DNA from: Desulfobacula sp.
GTDB lineage: Bacteria > Desulfobacterota > Desulfobacteria > Desulfobacterales > Desulfobacteraceae
Direction: 5' to 3'
Length of the DNA stretch: 64,000 nucleotides
Assembly: GCA_023701135.1 (NCBI GenBank)
Contig: JAMPXP010000006.1
Location: 124,001-188,000, forward strand
Shown: positions 11,544 to 45,485 of the stretch, piece by piece
How the letters are laid out: each line of letters opens with the position of its first letter
Position numbering within the stretch: the first letter of the stretch is position 1
Translations under genes and position numbers: made by a program
The notes under the pieces: generated by a model
The model's database searches: none
Told to the model about the DNA's origin: nothing
What the model saw: only the letters and a program-made list of their open reading frames with translations

Positions 11544-12005
11544 ATGAATGTTACACTGATCAATCCTTTTATCAATGCAACCATTAATGTTTTGGAAACC
11601 ATGGCCTTTGTAACGGTGAGTGCCGGTAAACCCTATTTGAAAAAAGACAATGTCGCCGTCGGAGACGTTACCGGTATCCTGGGTCTGACAGGGGTTGCCA
11701 ATGGGACGATTTCCGTCACCTTTGAAGAAAAATGTATCTTGAATGTGGTATCCAACATGTTTGGTGAAACCATGACGGAACTGAATCATGAAATCGCAGA
11801 CGCGGTCGGGGAATTGACCAATATGATTTCGGGCCAGGCCAGGAGGGAGCTTGAAGAGGCCGGAAAAGTATTCAAAGCGGCCATCCCTTCCGTCGTAACC
11901 GGACGGAACCATAGCATTACCCATCATACGGACGGGCCTAAGATTGCTATTCCCTTTAGCACGGGAAACGGTGATTTTACAATCGAGGTGTGTTTTGAAC
12001 GATAG
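11544..12005 (+). CDS. cheX: CheX-like CheY-P phosphatase
   Basis: This 153-residue protein of the CheC/CheX/FliY phosphatase superfamily has the characteristic helix DAVGELTNMISGQAR, in which the Glu and Asn (ExxN) remove phosphate from CheY-P. The single phosphatase motif and length fit CheX rather than CheC. It is followed 33 bases later by cheY, its expected substrate. No cheA or cheW lies in the window, so the kinase must be elsewhere. Confidence 0.88.
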   Translation: MNVTLINPFINATINVLETMAFVTVSAGKPYLKKDNVAVGDVTGILGLTGVANGTISVTFEEKCILNVVSNMFGETMTELNHEIADAVGELTNMISGQARRELEEAGKVFKAAIPSVVTGRNHSITHHTDGPKIAIPFSTGNGDFTIEVCFER

Positions 12006-12038: not shown

Positions 12039-12419
12039 GTGGCAATGGACACATCCATCAAGGTTTTGATTGTTGACGATTTTGCTACCATGCGCCGGAT
12101 TCTTAAAAATATTCTAAAACAAATAGGGTTTAAGAATCTTGTGGAAGCCGATGATGGAACCTCTGCATGGGAAATACTGCAGGGCCAGACCATTGACTTG
12201 ATTATTTCAGACTGGAATATGCCGAAGATGACCGGCCTTGAACTCTTAAAAAAAGTCAGGGCCAGCGATCAGTATAAAAGGACTCCTTTTCTAATGGTCA
12301 CTGCCGAGGCTCAGAAACAAAACGTCATAGAGGCTGTTCAGGCGGGGGTATCCAACTATGTGGTAAAACCCTTCACGGCTGAAGCGATTTCCGACAAGCT
12401 GGAAAAGATTTTAAAATGA
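12039..12419 (+). CDS. cheY: CheY-like single-domain response regulator
   Basis: This is a 126-residue stand-alone receiver: acidic pair in LIVDDFATMRR, phospho-acceptor Asp in IISDWNMP, a Thr in LMVTAE, and Lys in YVVKPFT. The wording FATMRRI is that of flagellar CheY. When phosphorylated it should bind the FliM N terminus at the motor and change rotation. AAGGAGG lies before GTG 12039 (5 bases) and ATG 12045 (11 bases); either may be the start. It is between cheX and a sigma-54 activator whose start overlaps its stop by 4 bases. Confidence 0.93.
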   Translation: MAMDTSIKVLIVDDFATMRRILKNILKQIGFKNLVEADDGTSAWEILQGQTIDLIISDWNMPKMTGLELLKKVRASDQYKRTPFLMVTAEAQKQNVIEAVQAGVSNYVVKPFTAEAISDKLEKILK

Positions 12420-31219: not shown

Positions 31220-31470
31220 TTAAACGAGAGATCAAACAGGGGAAGCACGGATATGAACTCCGGGTTTCCCCTGTCAGCTTTCTGACGGGATACCGGCCCC
31301 GTTGACAGACCTTTTTTTTTCCATCCTTACCGGGTTCCCATATTCTTGATTAAACTCCGCCCCTTCAAATAAATTAAATGTTTTGCAAATCAGGGCCAGT
31401 GAATTTATACTGGGCTCTAAAGCCGTTTTACCATCCCGGTGATGGGAAAACATGAAAAATATGGCATCCC
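31220..31470 (+). other. gap after flgE with weak terminator-like structure
   Basis: Together with the fliL leader, 31220-31531 is 312 bases without a gene. ACAGGGGAA and TTCCCCTGT form a 9-bp stem with a loop of about 20 bases soon after the flgE stop. A run of nine T lies near 31311-31319. These could end flgE transcription, but the stem and the T-run are not adjacent. Apart from the sigma-54 promoter at 31471, I see nothing else here. Confidence 0.35.
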
Positions 31471-31485
31471 TGGCACAGGGATTGC
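31471..31485 (+). promoter_or_regulatory. sigma-54 promoter before fliL operon
   Basis: TGGCACAGGGATTGC is the closest match in the window to the TGGCAC-N5-TTGC consensus. The predicted transcription start is near 31497, about 35 bases before the GTG start at 31532. It lies inside a longer in-frame extension of fliL, which argues against the upstream start codons at 31439 and 31442. Confidence 0.82.
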
Positions 31486-31531
31486 TAATCTTTGGGATAC
31501 GGCAGATAATCCATTAATATCAGGAGATCCT

Positions 31532-32158
31532 GTGACCGCAAAAACCCTGAAAGAAATGAAAAATGATCCTGATGCAGACCTGTCCGACGATGGCCTTGAA
31601 TCCCCTTTGGCCGGGACGGGAAAAAGCCGGATCAAAGGGCTGGCGGCAGGTGTGTCTGTTAGGATAAAGGGGCTTGGTAAGACATTTTTCAGCTCAAAAA
31701 AAGTCGTTATGATCACGGCAGCCGGGATAATTCTATTAATCGGAGGGATAACCGGAACCCTGTTTTTTCTCGGCAAAAGTCCTGAAAGCGACCAGAATAC
31801 TCAGAAGAAAGAAGCTTCCCAAGCGGCTGCTCCCTTGATCGCCCCGGCTGTTTTTGAAGATATTGTTGCATTGGCGCCCTTTGAACGTCTCCGGCTTAAG
31901 AACGGTTCAAGCATGACGCTTATCAGTATAAACCTGTCTTTGGAGCTGACCGACAGCCGTTATAAGCATGAGGTTCATGCCGTGGAAGACAAGATCCGGC
32001 AAATCGTTACAACTCAGGTAGAGGGAATGAGCTGGCTGGAATTGAGAAATCCGGAAGGGAAAATCATGCTTAAATATGATCTGCTCAAACGGATAAATTC
32101 AATTTTTCCTGAAACCGTGATCCGAAATATTTACTATACAAACTTTTTAATGCAGTGA
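31532..32158 (+). CDS. fliL: FliL-like basal-body protein
   Basis: This 208-residue inner-membrane protein has a cytoplasmic N-terminal part (about 65 residues), one membrane segment (VVMITAAGIILLIGGITGTLFFL) and a periplasmic FliL domain (about 110-208). The domain includes FERLRLKNGSSMTLISINLS, HEVHAVEDKIRQIVTTQ and a C-terminal INSIFPETVIRNIYYTNFLM. FliL surrounds the stator and supports its function. I chose GTG 31532 because CAGGAG lies 5 bases upstream and a sigma-54 promoter is 47 bases upstream. It is first in the 14-kb fliL-to-flhX operon. Confidence 0.85.
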   Translation: MTAKTLKEMKNDPDADLSDDGLESPLAGTGKSRIKGLAAGVSVRIKGLGKTFFSSKKVVMITAAGIILLIGGITGTLFFLGKSPESDQNTQKKEASQAAAPLIAPAVFEDIVALAPFERLRLKNGSSMTLISINLSLELTDSRYKHEVHAVEDKIRQIVTTQVEGMSWLELRNPEGKIMLKYDLLKRINSIFPETVIRNIYYTNFLMQ

Positions 32159-32165
32159 TGAATCT

Positions 32166-33158
32166 ATGAGCGAAATACTATCCCAGGATGAAGTTGACAG
32201 TCTACTCGACGGATTGGATTCAGGTGAAGTTGAAGCGGTAAAGGATAAAGCCAAGCCTGAAAAAATTGACGGCATTATTGCCTATGATTTTACTAGTCAG
32301 GACAAGGTTGTCCGGGCCAGAATGCCGACCTTTGACGTTATCAACGAGAGGCTTTCAAGAGAGGTCCGGGCTACCCTTTCTTCTTTGCTGCAAACCAATG
32401 TGGATGTCAGCGCCAATCCCTTTGATACCTTGAAATTTTCGGAATTTGTCCGAAGCCTTCCGGTTCCGACCAGCCTCCATGTGTTCAGGATGGAACCGTT
32501 AAGGGGCCACGGCCTGATTGTCCTTGAAAGCCAGTTGGTGTACAATCTGATCGATACATTTTTCGGGGGTGAGGCCCTTGGTAAAGCCAGGGTGGAGGGC
32601 CGGGAATTTACCAATATCGAAGAAGTTATGATCAAAAAAGCCGTGGTGGCGGTTTTGAAAAATATCGAAGCTTCCTGGGCGCCCATTGAACCGGTGAGAA
32701 CGACCCTGATCCGGTCGGAAATGAATCCCCAGTTTACCGCCATTGTCCTTCCCACGGACCTGGTTCTTGTAACCCGGTTTGAGATCGAACTGGAGCAGTC
32801 GGCGGGAAATCTGGTGGTCTGCTATCCCTATTCCATGATCGAACCCATGAGAAATAAATTGTCTTCCGGTGTCCAGGCCGAAGTGGAAGAAATCGATACC
32901 AACTGGAGAAAAATGATCCGGGAGGTCATCCTTGAATCAGAAGTTGTTTTGAGAATAGAACTCGGTAAAACGGAAATTACAGGTGAAAGACTGATATATA
33001 TGCAAAAGGGCGATATTATTCAACTCGATAATGACGCCTGCGATCCCTTGATCTGCTATGTGGACGGGCTCGCGAAATTGAAAGGCTATGCAGGCGTACA
33101 AAGAGGATTCCAGGCATTTCAGGTAAACGAAAAAATCATAACCGATTGTGAGGGGTAA
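32166..33158 (+). CDS. fliM: flagellar switch protein FliM
   Basis: The 330-residue C-ring protein has the N-terminal CheY-P-binding peptide ILSQDEVDSLLDGL (residues 4-17), a middle domain that contacts FliG (about 45-225, with SLHVFRMEPLRGHGL and DTFFGG) and a C-terminal SpoA domain that pairs with FliN. Its N-terminal motif is the template for the seven motif copies in the 514-residue protein at 41706-43250. It follows fliL by 7 bases and precedes fliN by 2 bases. Confidence 0.97.
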   Translation: MSEILSQDEVDSLLDGLDSGEVEAVKDKAKPEKIDGIIAYDFTSQDKVVRARMPTFDVINERLSREVRATLSSLLQTNVDVSANPFDTLKFSEFVRSLPVPTSLHVFRMEPLRGHGLIVLESQLVYNLIDTFFGGEALGKARVEGREFTNIEEVMIKKAVVAVLKNIEASWAPIEPVRTTLIRSEMNPQFTAIVLPTDLVLVTRFEIELEQSAGNLVVCYPYSMIEPMRNKLSSGVQAEVEEIDTNWRKMIREVILESEVVLRIELGKTEITGERLIYMQKGDIIQLDNDACDPLICYVDGLAKLKGYAGVQRGFQAFQVNEKIITDCEG

Positions 33159-35704: not shown

Positions 35705-36778
35705 ATGGCTGAAGATTCGGAAAGCGGCGGAGAGAAAACCGAAGACGCGTCGTCGCGGAAACTGTCCAAGTCCCGTGAAGAAGGACAGGTGGCAAAGAGT
35801 GTTGAAATCCCTTCCGTCTTTGTTCTTCTGACCGGCGCCATTGCCTTGTATTTTTCCGCTTTTAATATCTATCACAAGCTGATGGGCGTGTTACAATTTA
35901 ACCTTGATTTTAAAAAAATTCCCCTGTTGACAGAGCTTGAAGTGGTTCGATTGCTGGCCTATCACACTGAAAAAATCATCCTCATGTGTATCCCTGTCAT
36001 GGGGGTCATTGTTCTGGCCGCCATGGTTTCAAATCTTGCCCAGGTCGGTTTCACAATATCCTGGCAATCTCTGGAACCCAAACTGTCCAGGCTGGACCCC
36101 ATCAATGGGTTTAAGCAGAAATTCACCTCACGGGCCGTTGTGGAATTCTTAAAAACCCTTATAAAAGTGGGCGTTATTTCCATGGTGGCCTATAACGCCA
36201 TCAAGGCGGAACTGGTTCCCATAACATTTCTTTATGACACCAGTGTGGGATACATCCTTCTATACATGCTCAAGGTCTCGTTCTGGATTTTTGTCAAGGT
36301 CTGCCTGTTCATGCTGGTGGTGGCCATACTGGATTATGCCTATCAGAAATGGAAATTTCTGGAAGAACAGAAAATGACCAAAAAGGAAGTCAAGGACGAG
36401 ACCAAGCAGACCGAGGGTGATCCCCTGGTAAAATCCAGGATCAGGCAACTCCAGCACCAGGCGGCCAGGAAACGAATGATGGCCGATGTTCCCCGTGCGG
36501 ATGTGGTGGTGACCAACCCGACCCGTCTGGCCGTTGCCCTGAAATATGACGGCAAGACCATGGATGCTCCGAAGGTGCTTGCAAAAGGAGCCGGGCCCGT
36601 GGCCGAGAATATCAGGAGGATTGCAAGGGAAAATGATATCCCTCTGGTGGAAGATAAACAATTGGCCCGAAACTTGTATAGCAGTGTAGATATCGGCGGG
36701 GAGGTTCCGACGGAATTATACCAGGCCGTTGCGGAATTGCTGGCCTATGTTTACAAATTAAAAGGGAAAAAACTTTAG
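35705..36778 (+). CDS. flhB: flagellar export switch protein FlhB with NPTR instead of NPTH
   Basis: The 357-residue protein has four membrane helices (about residues 35-210) and a cytoplasmic domain that selects substrates. It opens with the usual EKTEDASSRKLSKSREEGQV segment. The autocleavage motif reads NPTR (Asn271-Pro272-Thr-Arg) instead of NPTH, followed by LAVALKYD. Asn and Pro, the cleaved pair, are kept; His is replaced by Arg. Cleavage may still occur but could be slower. A small FlhB-tail paralogue (FlhX) is at the end of the same operon. Confidence 0.95.
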   Translation: MAEDSESGGEKTEDASSRKLSKSREEGQVAKSVEIPSVFVLLTGAIALYFSAFNIYHKLMGVLQFNLDFKKIPLLTELEVVRLLAYHTEKIILMCIPVMGVIVLAAMVSNLAQVGFTISWQSLEPKLSRLDPINGFKQKFTSRAVVEFLKTLIKVGVISMVAYNAIKAELVPITFLYDTSVGYILLYMLKVSFWIFVKVCLFMLVVAILDYAYQKWKFLEEQKMTKKEVKDETKQTEGDPLVKSRIRQLQHQAARKRMMADVPRADVVVTNPTRLAVALKYDGKTMDAPKVLAKGAGPVAENIRRIARENDIPLVEDKQLARNLYSSVDIGGEVPTELYQAVAELLAYVYKLKGKKL

Positions 36779-40034: not shown

Positions 40035-40928
40035 TTGAATCAGGCAAAAGGACTTCAAAACGTTGTGAAAGACCGGGCGTTTTCAAGACGGAATGCAACG
40101 GCAATATCCGGCCCCACCGTCCTTCCGCGAGTGATCGCCGTTACCAGCGGAAAGGGAGGCGTCGGAAAAACCAATATCGTTGCCAATGCAGCCGTTTCCC
40201 TAAGCCGCATGGGAAAACGGGTGGTGATTATTGATGCCGATGTCGGTCTTGCCAATATCGATATTATTTTTAATTTAAGGCCTGAATTCAATATCAGGCA
40301 TGTCATCAATTCTGAAAAAACCTTGAAAGAAGTCATGGTTCAATCGGAACACGGGATTAAGATTCTTCCGGGCGGTTCCGGGTTTGCAGACCTGACCCAA
40401 TTGGGAGAGGGTGAAAAACTCAATCTTCTGACGGAGTTTGAAAGCCTTGCGGATCAAGCTGATATTATCTTTGTGGATACCGGCGCCGGGATTTCCGCCA
40501 ATGTATTATATTTTAATTCAGCCTGTGATGACTGTGTGGTCATCGCCACCAACGAGCCCACCTCCATTACCGATGCCTATGCCATGATGAAGGTCATGTC
40601 CCGGGAATATGGGACAAAATATTTTAAACTGATCGTCAACATGGTCGATTCCGAGGCCGAGGCCAAAAAAGTATATGGTTCCCTGAGTGGCGCCCTGGAT
40701 AAATTTTTAAAAAATGTGGTGCTGGAATATGTGGGTCATATTCCCTTTGACAGACAATTGCAGCAATCGGTTCAGAAAAGGGGGCTGGTCATGGATCGTT
40801 TTCCGGATTCGGCTTCTGCCCGGGCCATCCATGAAATAGCCGTTAGCCTTTCGAGGCGGCCGTTAAAAAACAATTCCAACGGGAATCTGACATTTTTTAT
40901 GAGCAGGGTTTTTCAAACCACAACCTGA
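40035..40928 (+). CDS. flhG: MinD/ParA-type ATPase FlhG (FleN/YlxH)
   Basis: This 297-residue ATPase limits flagellar number and stimulates FlhF GTPase activity. Near its N terminus is the short Gln-rich segment (MNQAKGLQNVV) that contacts FlhF, then deviant Walker A TSGKGGVGKTNIVANAA (about residues 37-53), DADVGLANIDI, and the switch DTGAGIS. The start is TTG at 40035 with AAAGGAG upstream, directly after flhF. Confidence 0.94.
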   Translation: MNQAKGLQNVVKDRAFSRRNATAISGPTVLPRVIAVTSGKGGVGKTNIVANAAVSLSRMGKRVVIIDADVGLANIDIIFNLRPEFNIRHVINSEKTLKEVMVQSEHGIKILPGGSGFADLTQLGEGEKLNLLTEFESLADQADIIFVDTGAGISANVLYFNSACDDCVVIATNEPTSITDAYAMMKVMSREYGTKYFKLIVNMVDSEAEAKKVYGSLSGALDKFLKNVVLEYVGHIPFDRQLQQSVQKRGLVMDRFPDSASARAIHEIAVSLSRRPLKNNSNGNLTFFMSRVFQTTT

Positions 40929-41705: not shown

Positions 41706-43250
41706 ATGTCCGACCCGATAATCGAAGAAGACGGTTTAATTTCTCAGGATGATATTGACAGGCTTATGGAATCCTCTTCCAGTGAAGAGGCCCAGGATAA
41801 AATGGCCGAGGAGAGTGACCTGGCGGATGAATTGGGAGAGCTTTCCCAGGATGATATCGACAGCCTCCTGAATTCAAATGTATCAGGCCAAGCGGATTCA
41901 TTGGGTGAACCGGATGCGTCAGCGACGGAAGACGGCGAAATGGAACTCATTTCCCAGGATGATATCGACCAATTGATGAATTCAAACCCCGGATCCGGGG
42001 AAAGCCTTCCGGTTCCTGACGAGGATGAAGACTTTGAAGAGCTGTCCCAGGACGATATTAAAGCCCTCATGGGAGCCCAGGATAAAAAAAATGAAGAGGA
42101 AGGCACGATACGTCAGGATGATTTCGTCATCAACGAATCCGAGGCCGACAGTGTGTCGGACTGCCTCATTACCCAGGCCGCCCTTGACAAACTGATGGAA
42201 AATGTCACCCTGATCCCTGATCCGGTTATTGCCGATGAAACACCACCGGCTGAAACAGAATCAGCCGGCAGCCCTGGATCCGATGCCGATACAATATCCT
42301 TGGACATATCCGACGCGGATACGGAAGATTTTTTAAAACCCGGATCTGATACGGATGTTCTTGAATTGAACGATGACAGGGAAGATGTCACCCAGGAAGA
42401 TATTGATGCACTTCTCTCAGAACCGGATGATGATGAGGAAGCCGAAGATGATGTTCTCATTTCCCAGGATGATATTGATACCCTCCTCATGGCGGCGGAC
42501 CAGGAGGACGAAGATGTCCTGGGGGATCTCATGGACAAGGGTATGGATATCGGCCTTGATGAAGACCTCTTTGAAAAAGAACCCTCTGGTGAAACCGGAG
42601 AAAAAGAGGATGAGGAAATCGGAAATGAAGCGGACGATGAGGGCGTAGATGAAGATGAAAATGAAGATCAGGTCGTCCTTCAGGGAGAGGATGAAGTCAC
42701 CCTGCAATCGAAAAAGAAAAAAGCCGGATCTCCCCGGATCAAAAAAAAGCTGGTTCTGGCCTTTGCCTCTTTCCTGGTTCTGCTCGGAATTGCAGTGCCC
42801 ATAAGCTATTTTCTCTTTTTTTCAAGTGGTCAGAAACCTGAGGAGGTTATTGTGAGCACTTCCCAACCGCCTGCGGTGAGCCCGCAAAGAGAGGTCGAGA
42901 TTGATACTGTCGAATCGCCTGCCAAGCCATTGGTGGAAAATAAAAATTCAGGCAATATGGTTTTAAAGGATTTTATCATATTGGCACCTGATATTTCAAA
43001 ACAAATGACCTATATCACCGCCGATATCTCCATTGATTATGCCGATCAGAAAGCCTCTCAGGAAATCCGGAAGAACCTGTCCTATTACCGGGATTTGATT
43101 TATGACGCCATCGGCAAGAGCCTGGTTGCCGAGAAACAGGAAGATATTACAGAAGAGGAAATTCTTTCCAGAATTGAAACCGTATTGCGTTCGGCATTGC
43201 CCGGAGATTCCATCAGCCGGGTCAGTTTTCTATCATTTAAGATCAGCTGA
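41706..43250 (+). CDS. FliL-like membrane protein with seven FliM-type CheY-binding motifs
   Basis: The 514-residue protein has three parts. Residues 1-335 are very acidic and apparently disordered, with seven motif copies: 11-21, 46-55, 81-91, 113-122, 154-164, 228-237 and 251-261. Most read SQDDIDxLL/M, almost the CheY-P-binding peptide of FliM (SQDEVDSLL here). Then KKKK and RIKKK precede one membrane helix (about 349-372). The C-terminal part (about 410-514) resembles the FliL periplasmic domain (VLKDFIILAPD, TADISIDYAD). Positive charges before the helix put the motifs in the cytoplasm. It lies just after fliA. The architecture is unfamiliar to me; a CheY-P-concentrating role is inference. 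Confidence 0.85.
   Translation: MSDPIIEEDGLISQDDIDRLMESSSSEEAQDKMAEESDLADELGELSQDDIDSLLNSNVSGQADSLGEPDASATEDGEMELISQDDIDQLMNSNPGSGESLPVPDEDEDFEELSQDDIKALMGAQDKKNEEEGTIRQDDFVINESEADSVSDCLITQAALDKLMENVTLIPDPVIADETPPAETESAGSPGSDADTISLDISDADTEDFLKPGSDTDVLELNDDREDVTQEDIDALLSEPDDDEEAEDDVLISQDDIDTLLMAADQEDEDVLGDLMDKGMDIGLDEDLFEKEPSGETGEKEDEEIGNEADDEGVDEDENEDQVVLQGEDEVTLQSKKKKAGSPRIKKKLVLAFASFLVLLGIAVPISYFLFFSSGQKPEEVIVSTSQPPAVSPQREVEIDTVESPAKPLVENKNSGNMVLKDFIILAPDISKQMTYITADISIDYADQKASQEIRKNLSYYRDLIYDAIGKSLVAEKQEDITEEEILSRIETVLRSALPGDSISRVSFLSFKIS
41736..42488 (+). repeat. dispersed SQDDID motif repeats
   Basis: Seven short repeats encode [LV]xxQxxxxxL[LM] peptides separated by 22-63 acidic residues. 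At DNA level four copies share CCAGGATGATAT or a one-base variant, and a fifth reads CTCAGGATGATATTGA. This suggests spread by local duplication. Copy 5 (LITQAALDKLM) is the most diverged. Confidence 0.85.
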
Positions 43251-43261
43251 GGGGAGATAGG

Positions 43262-43564
43262 ATGACAACCATACCGGGTCACAATCTGGTCATTCAGCAG
43301 TCCGGGGTTGCTCAGGAAATAACCCATCCGACAACCACACCCAAACCGTCCCCGGAACAGGCGGCTGTTCTCCAGCAAGCCGGGGAAGTCCTTAAAAACT
43401 CAACGGTTCAGGAGTTTGAAGAATCTGAACGGCTGAAATTGAAAAAAGAGAAAGAATCACTGGTCGCAAAACAAAGGAAAAAAGAGCATAAAAATAAGAA
43501 AAGGCGGGAAGATCTGGAACAGGACCCCGATGCAACGGGAAAGCTTGTGGACACCATCATATGA
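43262..43564 (+). CDS. hypothetical basic protein in flagellar operon
   Basis: I do not recognise this 100-residue protein. The N-terminal half is Pro/Thr/Gln-rich (THPTTTPKPSPEQAA). The second half is a highly charged helix (SERLKLKKEKESLVAKQRKK), followed by DLEQDPDATGKLVDTII. There is no signal or membrane segment. It has a strong GAGGGGA ribosome site and overlaps the next gene by 4 bases (ATGA), so it is translated with its operon neighbours. Confidence 0.7.
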   Translation: MTTIPGHNLVIQQSGVAQEITHPTTTPKPSPEQAAVLQQAGEVLKNSTVQEFEESERLKLKKEKESLVAKQRKKEHKNKKRREDLEQDPDATGKLVDTII

Positions 43565-45209: not shown

Positions 45210-45485
45210 ATGGAAAAAAGATATATCCAGAAGGCTGTCGCGCTAAAATATGACCGGAAAAAAGATGGTGCCCCCAAGGTGGCGGCCAAGGGAAAGGGCA
45301 AGGTAGCCGAGAAAATCATTGAACTTGCGAAAAAACATGATATTCCCATTAAGGATGATCCTGACTTGGTGGAGGTCTTGTCCTCCCTTGATATCAATCA
45401 GGAGATTCCTTCAGAAATTTATGCGGCCGTTGCAGAACTACTGGCCTTTGTCTATTCCCTGAATTCCAAACGCCGGCCCATATAA
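45210..45485 (+). CDS. flhX: FlhX, FlhB C-terminal domain paralogue
   Basis: This 91-residue soluble protein matches the FlhB tail after the cleavage site: AVALKYDRKKDGAPKVAAKG, AEKIIELAKKHDIPI and IPSEIYAAVAELLAFVYSL align with FlhB's AVALKYD, NDIPLVED and PTELYQAVAELLAYVYKL. It has no membrane part and no NPTH motif; the protein starts where the FlhB cleavage product would. Such FlhX proteins can partly replace the FlhB tail. It starts 3 bases after the FliK-like gene and ends the long operon. Confidence 0.88.
   Translation: MEKRYIQKAVALKYDRKKDGAPKVAAKGKGKVAEKIIELAKKHDIPIKDDPDLVEVLSSLDINQEIPSEIYAAVAELLAFVYSLNSKRRPI

Follow-up and report, generated by a model that had tools for sequence, protein, structure and literature searches.

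A FliL-like membrane protein with tandem putative CheY-docking motifs in the flagellar gene cluster of a Desulfobacula species

CheY-P is usually pictured as a freely diffusing messenger, with the C ring as its motor-side site. A gene in a stretch of 64,000 nucleotides from Desulfobacula sp. (GenBank assembly GCA_023701135.1, contig JAMPXP010000006.1, positions 124,001 to 188,000; hereafter the window) raises the question of what a membrane protein encoded among flagellar genes would do with many copies of the short peptide by which FliM docks this messenger. The answer preferred here, to which a probability of roughly 0.6 is given, is that the protein is a FliL-type anchor with a tail that docks CheY-P at the motor. 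The parts of the protein are known and their arrangement is apparently undescribed. Thus, no description of the architecture was found in the open-access literature, subscription papers being outside that scope, which agrees with the statement of a preliminary description of this DNA that no characterised protein of such layout was known. The gene and its main parts are as follows.

41706 to 43250, + strand: gene for a FliL-like membrane protein with tandem putative CheY-docking motifs (ATG start, 514 amino acids, read from the open reading frame)
42672 to 42695, + strand: VVLQGEDE-type short stretch ahead of the membrane; a V[VI]LE..[DE] stretch is kept just before the membrane helix in many relatives
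42711 to 42749, + strand: basic stretch KKKKAGSPRIKKK on the predicted cytoplasmic side, directly N-terminal to the membrane helix
42750 to 42824, + strand: lone transmembrane helix, about residues 349-373, from sequence and AlphaFold
42930 to 43247, + strand: periplasmic FliL (SPFH/stomatin-like) domain, about residues 409-514, from profile and predicted fold

A strongly acidic tail is formed by residues 1-346 (34% D+E, net charge -100); by the positive-inside rule, the position of KKKKAGSPRIKKK directly before the membrane helix places this tail in the cytoplasm. The single membrane helix with basic residues on its N-terminal side, as noted in the preliminary description, was thus borne out, and a periplasmic location of the motifs, named there as evidence against docking, was checked and found to be at odds with the predicted topology. 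The tail itself had been given as 260 residues, which holds for the region covered by motifs (residues 13-261) but falls short of the acidic tail, which continues to about residue 346. Seven motif copies lie in this tail.

41742 to 41768, + strand: motif 1, SQDDIDRLM, residues 13-21, predicted helix 14-22
41844 to 41870, + strand: motif 2, SQDDIDSLL, residues 47-55, predicted helix 48-56
41952 to 41978, + strand: motif 3, SQDDIDQLM, residues 83-91, predicted helix 84-92
42045 to 42071, + strand: motif 4, SQDDIKALM, degenerate, residues 114-122, predicted helix 115-123
42171 to 42197, + strand: motif 5, TQAALDKLM, degenerate, residues 156-164, predicted helix 157-165
42390 to 42416, + strand: motif 6, TQEDIDALL, residues 229-237, predicted helix 230-237
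42462 to 42488, + strand: motif 7, SQDDIDTLL, residues 253-261, predicted helix 254-266
(all seven from pattern matching and AlphaFold)

The core [ST]Q[DE][DE][IV]Dx[LI][LM] was matched strictly by five of the seven copies, four of them exact SQDDIDxL[LM] and one TQEDIDALL, so that the earlier count of seven stands only with the degenerate SQDDIKALM and TQAALDKLM included. The latter, motif 5, was the least conserved copy in a 12-row alignment, and a conserved MAADQEDEDVLGD-type stretch comes after motif 7. When the tail was shuffled 10,000 times with its composition kept, strict copies averaged 0.0004 and loose-pattern copies 0.0098, each with a maximum of 1, as opposed to the 5 and 7 observed. 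A scan of the source genome (4.8 Mb, 42 contigs, 98.87% complete) with the strict DNA pattern returned six sites, one in fliM and five in the gene at 41706-43250, and a reversed control pattern returned 0 matches in this genome. Such counts depend on the pattern, the scans for distribution and consensus described below being looser than the seven-copy scan. No DNA-level tandem duplication was found across the motifs, just two tiny arrays.

Invariant positions in the 12-row alignment made up 24 of 63 within motifs and 7 of 283 within linkers (Fisher p 3e-14), and mean D/E identity to the protein of the window was 93% and 47%, respectively, a contrast that is an upper bound since MAFFT may pair one repeat with another. 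As read from this alignment, conservation is centred on the motifs. An AlphaFold model of the full-length protein (12 rows, mean pLDDT 56, pTM 0.27) had one helix per motif in all seven cases, other helices of at least 4 residues ahead of the membrane at 26-40, 144-151 and 269-278, and pLDDT under 50 in most of the remaining tail stretches; confidence being low, the motif helices are only a hint.

Genes for the proteins with which the tail might be compared or might interact are present in the same window.

31439 to 32158, + strand: separate, ordinary fliL (PF03748, E 1.8e-12)
32166 to 33158, + strand: fliM, with a single docking motif SQDEVDSLL at 32181 to 32207 and an N-terminus that begins MSEILSQDEVDSLL
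11544 to 12005, + strand: cheX-type gene (PF13690 over cut-off)
12039 to 12419, + strand: cheY, the presumed partner, 56% identical to E. coli CheY (123 residues)
40035 to 40928, + strand: flhG-like MinD/ParA ATPase gene, a rival partner, taken to be flhG from its context

The FliM docking consensus is LSQxEIDxLL; in Caulobacter, changing ID to WA abolishes both reversals and binding of the partner (PMC5677366). This is in keeping with the earlier statement that the peptide is the docking site for CheY-P. The FliM motif appears as EIDALL in PMC9126983, and FliM, FliN and FliY are known to contain EIDAL motifs in full and in degenerate form (PMC6946799). The alpha-N helix of FliM sits on the alpha4-beta5-alpha5 face of CheY (PMC11528121), with a 20-fold gain in affinity on phosphorylation (PMC7355467). 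The C-terminus of E. coli CheZ, read here as ASQDQVDDLLDSLGF, is likewise a CheY-P binding region (PMC7750401) and contains a similar motif; the CheZ domain (PF04344) was not listed for the 514-residue protein.

The tail motif fits LSQxEIDxLL except for D in place of E at position 4. Thus, the near equality with the FliM N-terminus (MSEILSQDEVDSLL) noted in the preliminary description was found to hold for the common core, SQx[DE][IV]DxL[LM], and not for position 4. Over 335 contexts from 46 proteins, in which Q and part of the framework were set by the search pattern, the wider consensus was [ILV][ST]Q[DE]DIDxL[LM] with D at position 4 in 91%, as opposed to E in all 50 FliMs read. To judge from these sequences, the tail motif does not simply repeat the FliM peptide of this cluster. 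Apart from this residue, the 514-residue protein differs from FliM in motif number, five strict and two degenerate as opposed to one, and in lacking the FliM middle and SpoA domains, neither PF02154 nor PF01052 being listed for it. The cheY gene of the window lies 29 kb upstream, and the last 40 residues of its product, which include the FliM-binding face, largely keep the E. coli sequence. Five CheA-type (PF02895) kinase genes were noted on five contigs of genome G000, so that several chemosensory systems could feed CheY-like proteins.

The FliL-like outer domain claimed in the preliminary description was confirmed by profile and predicted fold even though PF03748 (FliL) was neither listed for the 514-residue protein nor found for it in a genome search at E<=10; for the latter reason the domain is called FliL-like and divergent and is not filed as Pfam FliL. 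Thus, a C-terminal profile built from 16 homologs matched the FliL structures 7sgn (E 1.5e-4) and 9hmf (E 1.9e-4), with the next match at E 0.57, and below E=0.5 found FliL alone in the PDB. An AlphaFold model of residues 337-514 (16 rows) had pLDDT of at least 90 for 75 of 178 residues and pTM 0.53. With this model the best 11 of 327 Foldseek matches were FliL chains (E 1.1e-5 to 6.2e-4), and stomatin SPFH domains came next. In VIA-align three FliL entries scored Z 11.9, 11.7 and 11.5, and the next, prohibitin, 8.9. Like the protein described here, FliL (PF03748; 7sgn, 6ahp, 6ahq, 9hmf) has one membrane helix and the same predicted periplasmic SPFH-like fold. In contrast, the cytoplasmic part of ordinary FliL comprises 2-28 residues in the species covered by PMC10127578, compared with about 346 acidic residues here, and the 514-residue protein carries putative docking motifs in this part and occurs beside a separate FliL, the gene of which was found at 31439-32158 as the preliminary description had indicated.

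FliL rings surround stator units, and the N-terminal region and membrane helix of FliL can lower motor output (PMC10127578). These properties would suit a brake or clutch under control of CheY-P, in which a tail loaded with CheY-P affects the stator by way of the FliL domain, so that torque changes and direction does not. Such a function is considered decidedly unlikely, since the ordinary FliL N-terminus is as short as noted above and CheY does not figure in PMC10127578, which makes the link between the two a conjecture.

On the + strand the gene, denoted X, belongs to the run flhA-flhF-flhG-fliA-X-(100 amino acids)-(DUF6115 protein)-(FliK-like)-(FlhB C-terminal-like)-flgF-flgG, in which the names flhA, flhF, flhG, flgF and flgG are those that we presume to apply. 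Its start lies 11 bp from the fliA stop codon. Of the earlier claim that the gene follows fliA in the fliL operon, the adjacency to fliA was therefore confirmed, and a single operon is plausible from strand and spacing. The adjoining gene at 43262-43564 encodes a small basic protein of 100 amino acids that lacked any Pfam or NCBIfam match above cut-off and that has counterparts of similar appearance at the corresponding position in three further families of the order. A free-standing FlhB C-terminal-like protein of 91 amino acids is encoded at 45210-45485 (TIGR00789 just under its cut-off), in addition to what we take to be a full flhB-like gene at 35705-36778.

The flhG-like gene is two genes upstream of X, and FlhG binds FliM/N through the FliM N-terminus in monotrichous bacteria (PMC12826062). 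FlhG is a real rival to CheY as the partner: the motifs may dock FlhG and not CheY, in which case the protein would anchor this MinD-like ATPase at the membrane and so take part in control of flagellar number or place or in C-ring assembly. FlhG binds the very peptide that the tail motif resembles, and as a dimer (PMC12826062) would gain avidity from repeated motifs. Genes presumed to be flhF, flhG and fliA immediately precede X and its counterparts in three relatives that belong to other families. This explanation appears unlikely, however, given that two families acting on CheY-P, CheZ and FliY, include members in which the motif is multiplied, and that FliL domains would be expected to go with stators and not with an assembly checkpoint.

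The tail could also be a sink for CheY-P that competes with FliM and damps switching or that limits the signal together with CheX. Competition is a described mode of control, CleA and CheY-I being proposed FliM competitors in Caulobacter (PMC5677366), and five of the six strict motifs of the genome lie in X. In the source genome no CheZ match exceeded the cut-off, two matches being sub-threshold, and a CheX gene is present in the cluster. A soluble protein would suffice for a sink, however, and the FliL-domain anchor points to a local function; this possibility is therefore rated as fairly unlikely.

The architecture was also sought across genomes, as the preliminary description had proposed. 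Protein homologs occurred in 18 of 38 genomes (source genome included), and profile matches in 19 of 297 genomes of the phylum, some of them ordinary FliLs, and in 66 of 291 genomes of the order, including motif-free relatives and weak, partial matches; motif counts ranged from 0 to the highest seen, 15. Besides Desulfobacula, a genus of Desulfobacterales according to NCBI, the protein is found in Desulfospira, Desulfotignum, Desulfamplus, Desulforapulum and Desulfosudis. The carriers are many sulfate-reducing bacteria, with the gene inside a flagellar cluster. FliM was found in 160 of the 291 order genomes and in 62 of the 66 with a relative. Of the 59 genomes for which contigs were compared, 43 had relative and fliM on the same one, with the relative 9.6-12.7 kb downstream of fliM in 41; for these distances one match per genome was taken, and FliM coordinates came from the 82 better-scoring of the 160 genomes with FliM. 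Synteny with flhF, flhG, fliA and the downstream genes was seen in three relatives outside the family but within the order, and a second, weaker profile match beside fliM, the expected place of fliL, was seen in seven relatives.

Among 34 loci read, 12 had at least three motifs, 6 had one or two and 16 had none, some of the tail counts being lower bounds due to cut contigs; at least 23 of the 34 shared a contig with fliM. Two of these loci (L281, L282) were missed by the genome-wide profile search and found at the syntenic place, so that absences are over-counted. Of the 297 phylum genomes, G000 and G222 alone had at least five motif copies, and both carry a gene of this type. A FliM tree of 42 rows (that of the window and 41 of the 50 others read; midpoint root), from which 5 with an unread tail and 4 others were left out, placed 30 motif-bearing rows on one side of a 99/99 branch, and the 12 motif-free rows required one change; two changes were needed for the five rows that have a copy number of 1 or 2. 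The distribution on the FliM tree is thus one-sided, with later change in copy number. In a co-loss test, the FliM motif was retained in all 50 FliMs read, including the 12 from motif-free genomes, which indicates that the tail is not needed wherever FliM has the motif; loss of the FliM motif along with a motif-free relative was without support, 12 of 12 such FliMs having kept it. A receiver gene within the 8 kb of the locus was noted at just 1 of the 27 Desulfobacterales loci with tandem motifs, which, like the distance of cheY in the window and D at position 4, tells against CheY docking.

These 27 loci come from a wider search for the motif in which 91 stretches were found and 80 loci examined. 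At least two motifs in one open reading frame were present at 59 of the 80 loci, and at no fewer than 11 more by a looser check; 27 of the 59 were assigned to Desulfobacterales, by title or, for broader titles, by sequence, and 32 came from elsewhere, with three locus pairs sharing a contig. The Desulfobacterales loci comprised 25 of the FliL-like type or fragments of it, one DUF3999 protein and one fragment outside these types. Elsewhere, CheZ-family proteins with Pfam CheZ over cut-off had 3 (Asticcacaulis aquaticus) or 4 (a Rhodothermus MAG) tandem copies at the C-terminus, each gene being directly preceded by a receiver gene, and a Lachnospiraceae FliY (CheC + FliMN_C) had three tandem SQEEMDALM copies. 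Tandem copies in CheZ and FliY of other phyla support CheY docking. FliY (CheC + SpoA) is a C-ring protein and, unlike the 514-residue protein, has no membrane anchor. CheZ-type proteins with 3-4 C-terminal tandem copies were noted at L190:1764-2681, L200:6807-7763 and L165:2-958, Pfam having been run on L190 and L200.

The motif need not mean CheY, since DUF3999, DUF2497, zinc-ribbon/DUF3426 and Nitrospinota membrane proteins, which are not flagellar by family or context, also had tandem copies, as did, in a few instances, a Lon protease and archaeal proteins. In view of these proteins from several phyla, the motif could be a portable docking peptide for a general receiver domain or another protein, with its likeness to the FliM N-terminus partly due to convergence. 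We regard this as very unlikely for X, which lies deep in a flagellar cluster in a genome where the strict motif is found elsewhere only in FliM. The Nitrospinota/Nitrospirae proteins at L139, L173 and L198 likewise have an acidic multi-motif tail, a membrane helix and a small outer domain; in contrast with X, however, the neighbours of L139 and L198 are non-flagellar. The proposal that the Nitrospinota outer domain is FliL was not supported, as profile comparison aligned only the membrane helix region.

The Desulfatibacillum DUF3999 protein at L133:323-3169 has many QDDLDALL-type motifs, probably cytoplasmic, in a C-terminal tail after a membrane helix. Tandem SQDDIDALL/F-type motifs were seen at L132, L146, L139, L173, L198, L153, L167 and L175, which encode zinc-ribbon/DUF3426, Nitrospinota membrane, Verrucomicrobia, unclassified-bacterium and DUF2497 proteins; no flagellar neighbours were seen at L132, L146, L139, L198, L153 or L167, and L153 adjoins receiver genes. 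Paired QDDIDALL-like motifs with a residue other than S/T before Q in at least one copy were noted at L127, L135, L176, L178, L179, L181, L183, L187, L196, L197 and L204, which include Magnetospirillum, Sneathiella, Desulfoscipio and Planctomycetales.

With a receiver profile seeded from E. coli, L200, L153 and L143 sequences, receiver genes were detected near 14 of the 32 non-Desulfobacterales loci and 6 of 21 intended controls, of which at least the 11 loci just listed themselves hold motif pairs and 9 look like coiled-coil or chance matches. When loci were re-sorted post hoc, with borderline L182 left out, the corresponding values were 19 of 43 and 0 of 9, which is suggestive only and is given no weight as evidence here.

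The preferred reading, an anchor that docks CheY-P, would make X a second, FliL-type motor protein whose flexible tail presents CheY-docking peptides in an array. The membrane helix together with the periplasmic FliL domain would form the anchor, probably around stator units as for FliL, and the acidic tail would hang in the cytoplasm. The earlier proposal of a stator- or basal-body-associated anchor that gathers or buffers CheY-P, or competes with FliM, is supported in part. To judge from the likeness of the motifs, each would form a short helix on the face of CheY-P used by the FliM N-terminus and the CheZ C-terminus. CheY being monovalent, many weak tethered sites would raise local density and rebinding without trapping, and the higher density of CheY-P next to the C ring would constitute a motor-side reservoir that supplies FliM or smooths fluctuations in CheY-P. 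The identity of the partner, the location at the motor and the sense of the effect are what we infer here, and the reservoir step carries somewhat over half of the probability given to the reading as a whole. Since the sink and the brake share the docking step, their odds overlap with those of the preferred reading.

A bolder joint claim, which we hold tentatively and at less than even odds, is that a CheY-P antenna at the motor was built once in Desulfobacterales from a FliL-type ring subunit and a disordered array of docking helices. Docking sites in this antenna would outnumber those of the FliM ring several times over, and CheY-P would be concentrated both at the stator and at the C ring; evolution would have used the copy number, from 1 to 15, as a means of tuning. 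Tandem arrays would then have been invented repeatedly, in CheZ, FliY and FliL-like proteins, as a means of setting local CheY-P.

A FliL-like protein with a docking array suggests a way of holding the CheY signal beside the motor. Relatives differ naturally in copy number, from 0 to 15, which makes this idea testable, and the idea bears on the gap between the non-cooperative binding of CheY and the very steep switching of the motor (PMC7355467). If the idea is true, some motors would manage CheY-P locally by means of a conserved membrane protein with many more docking peptides than FliM.
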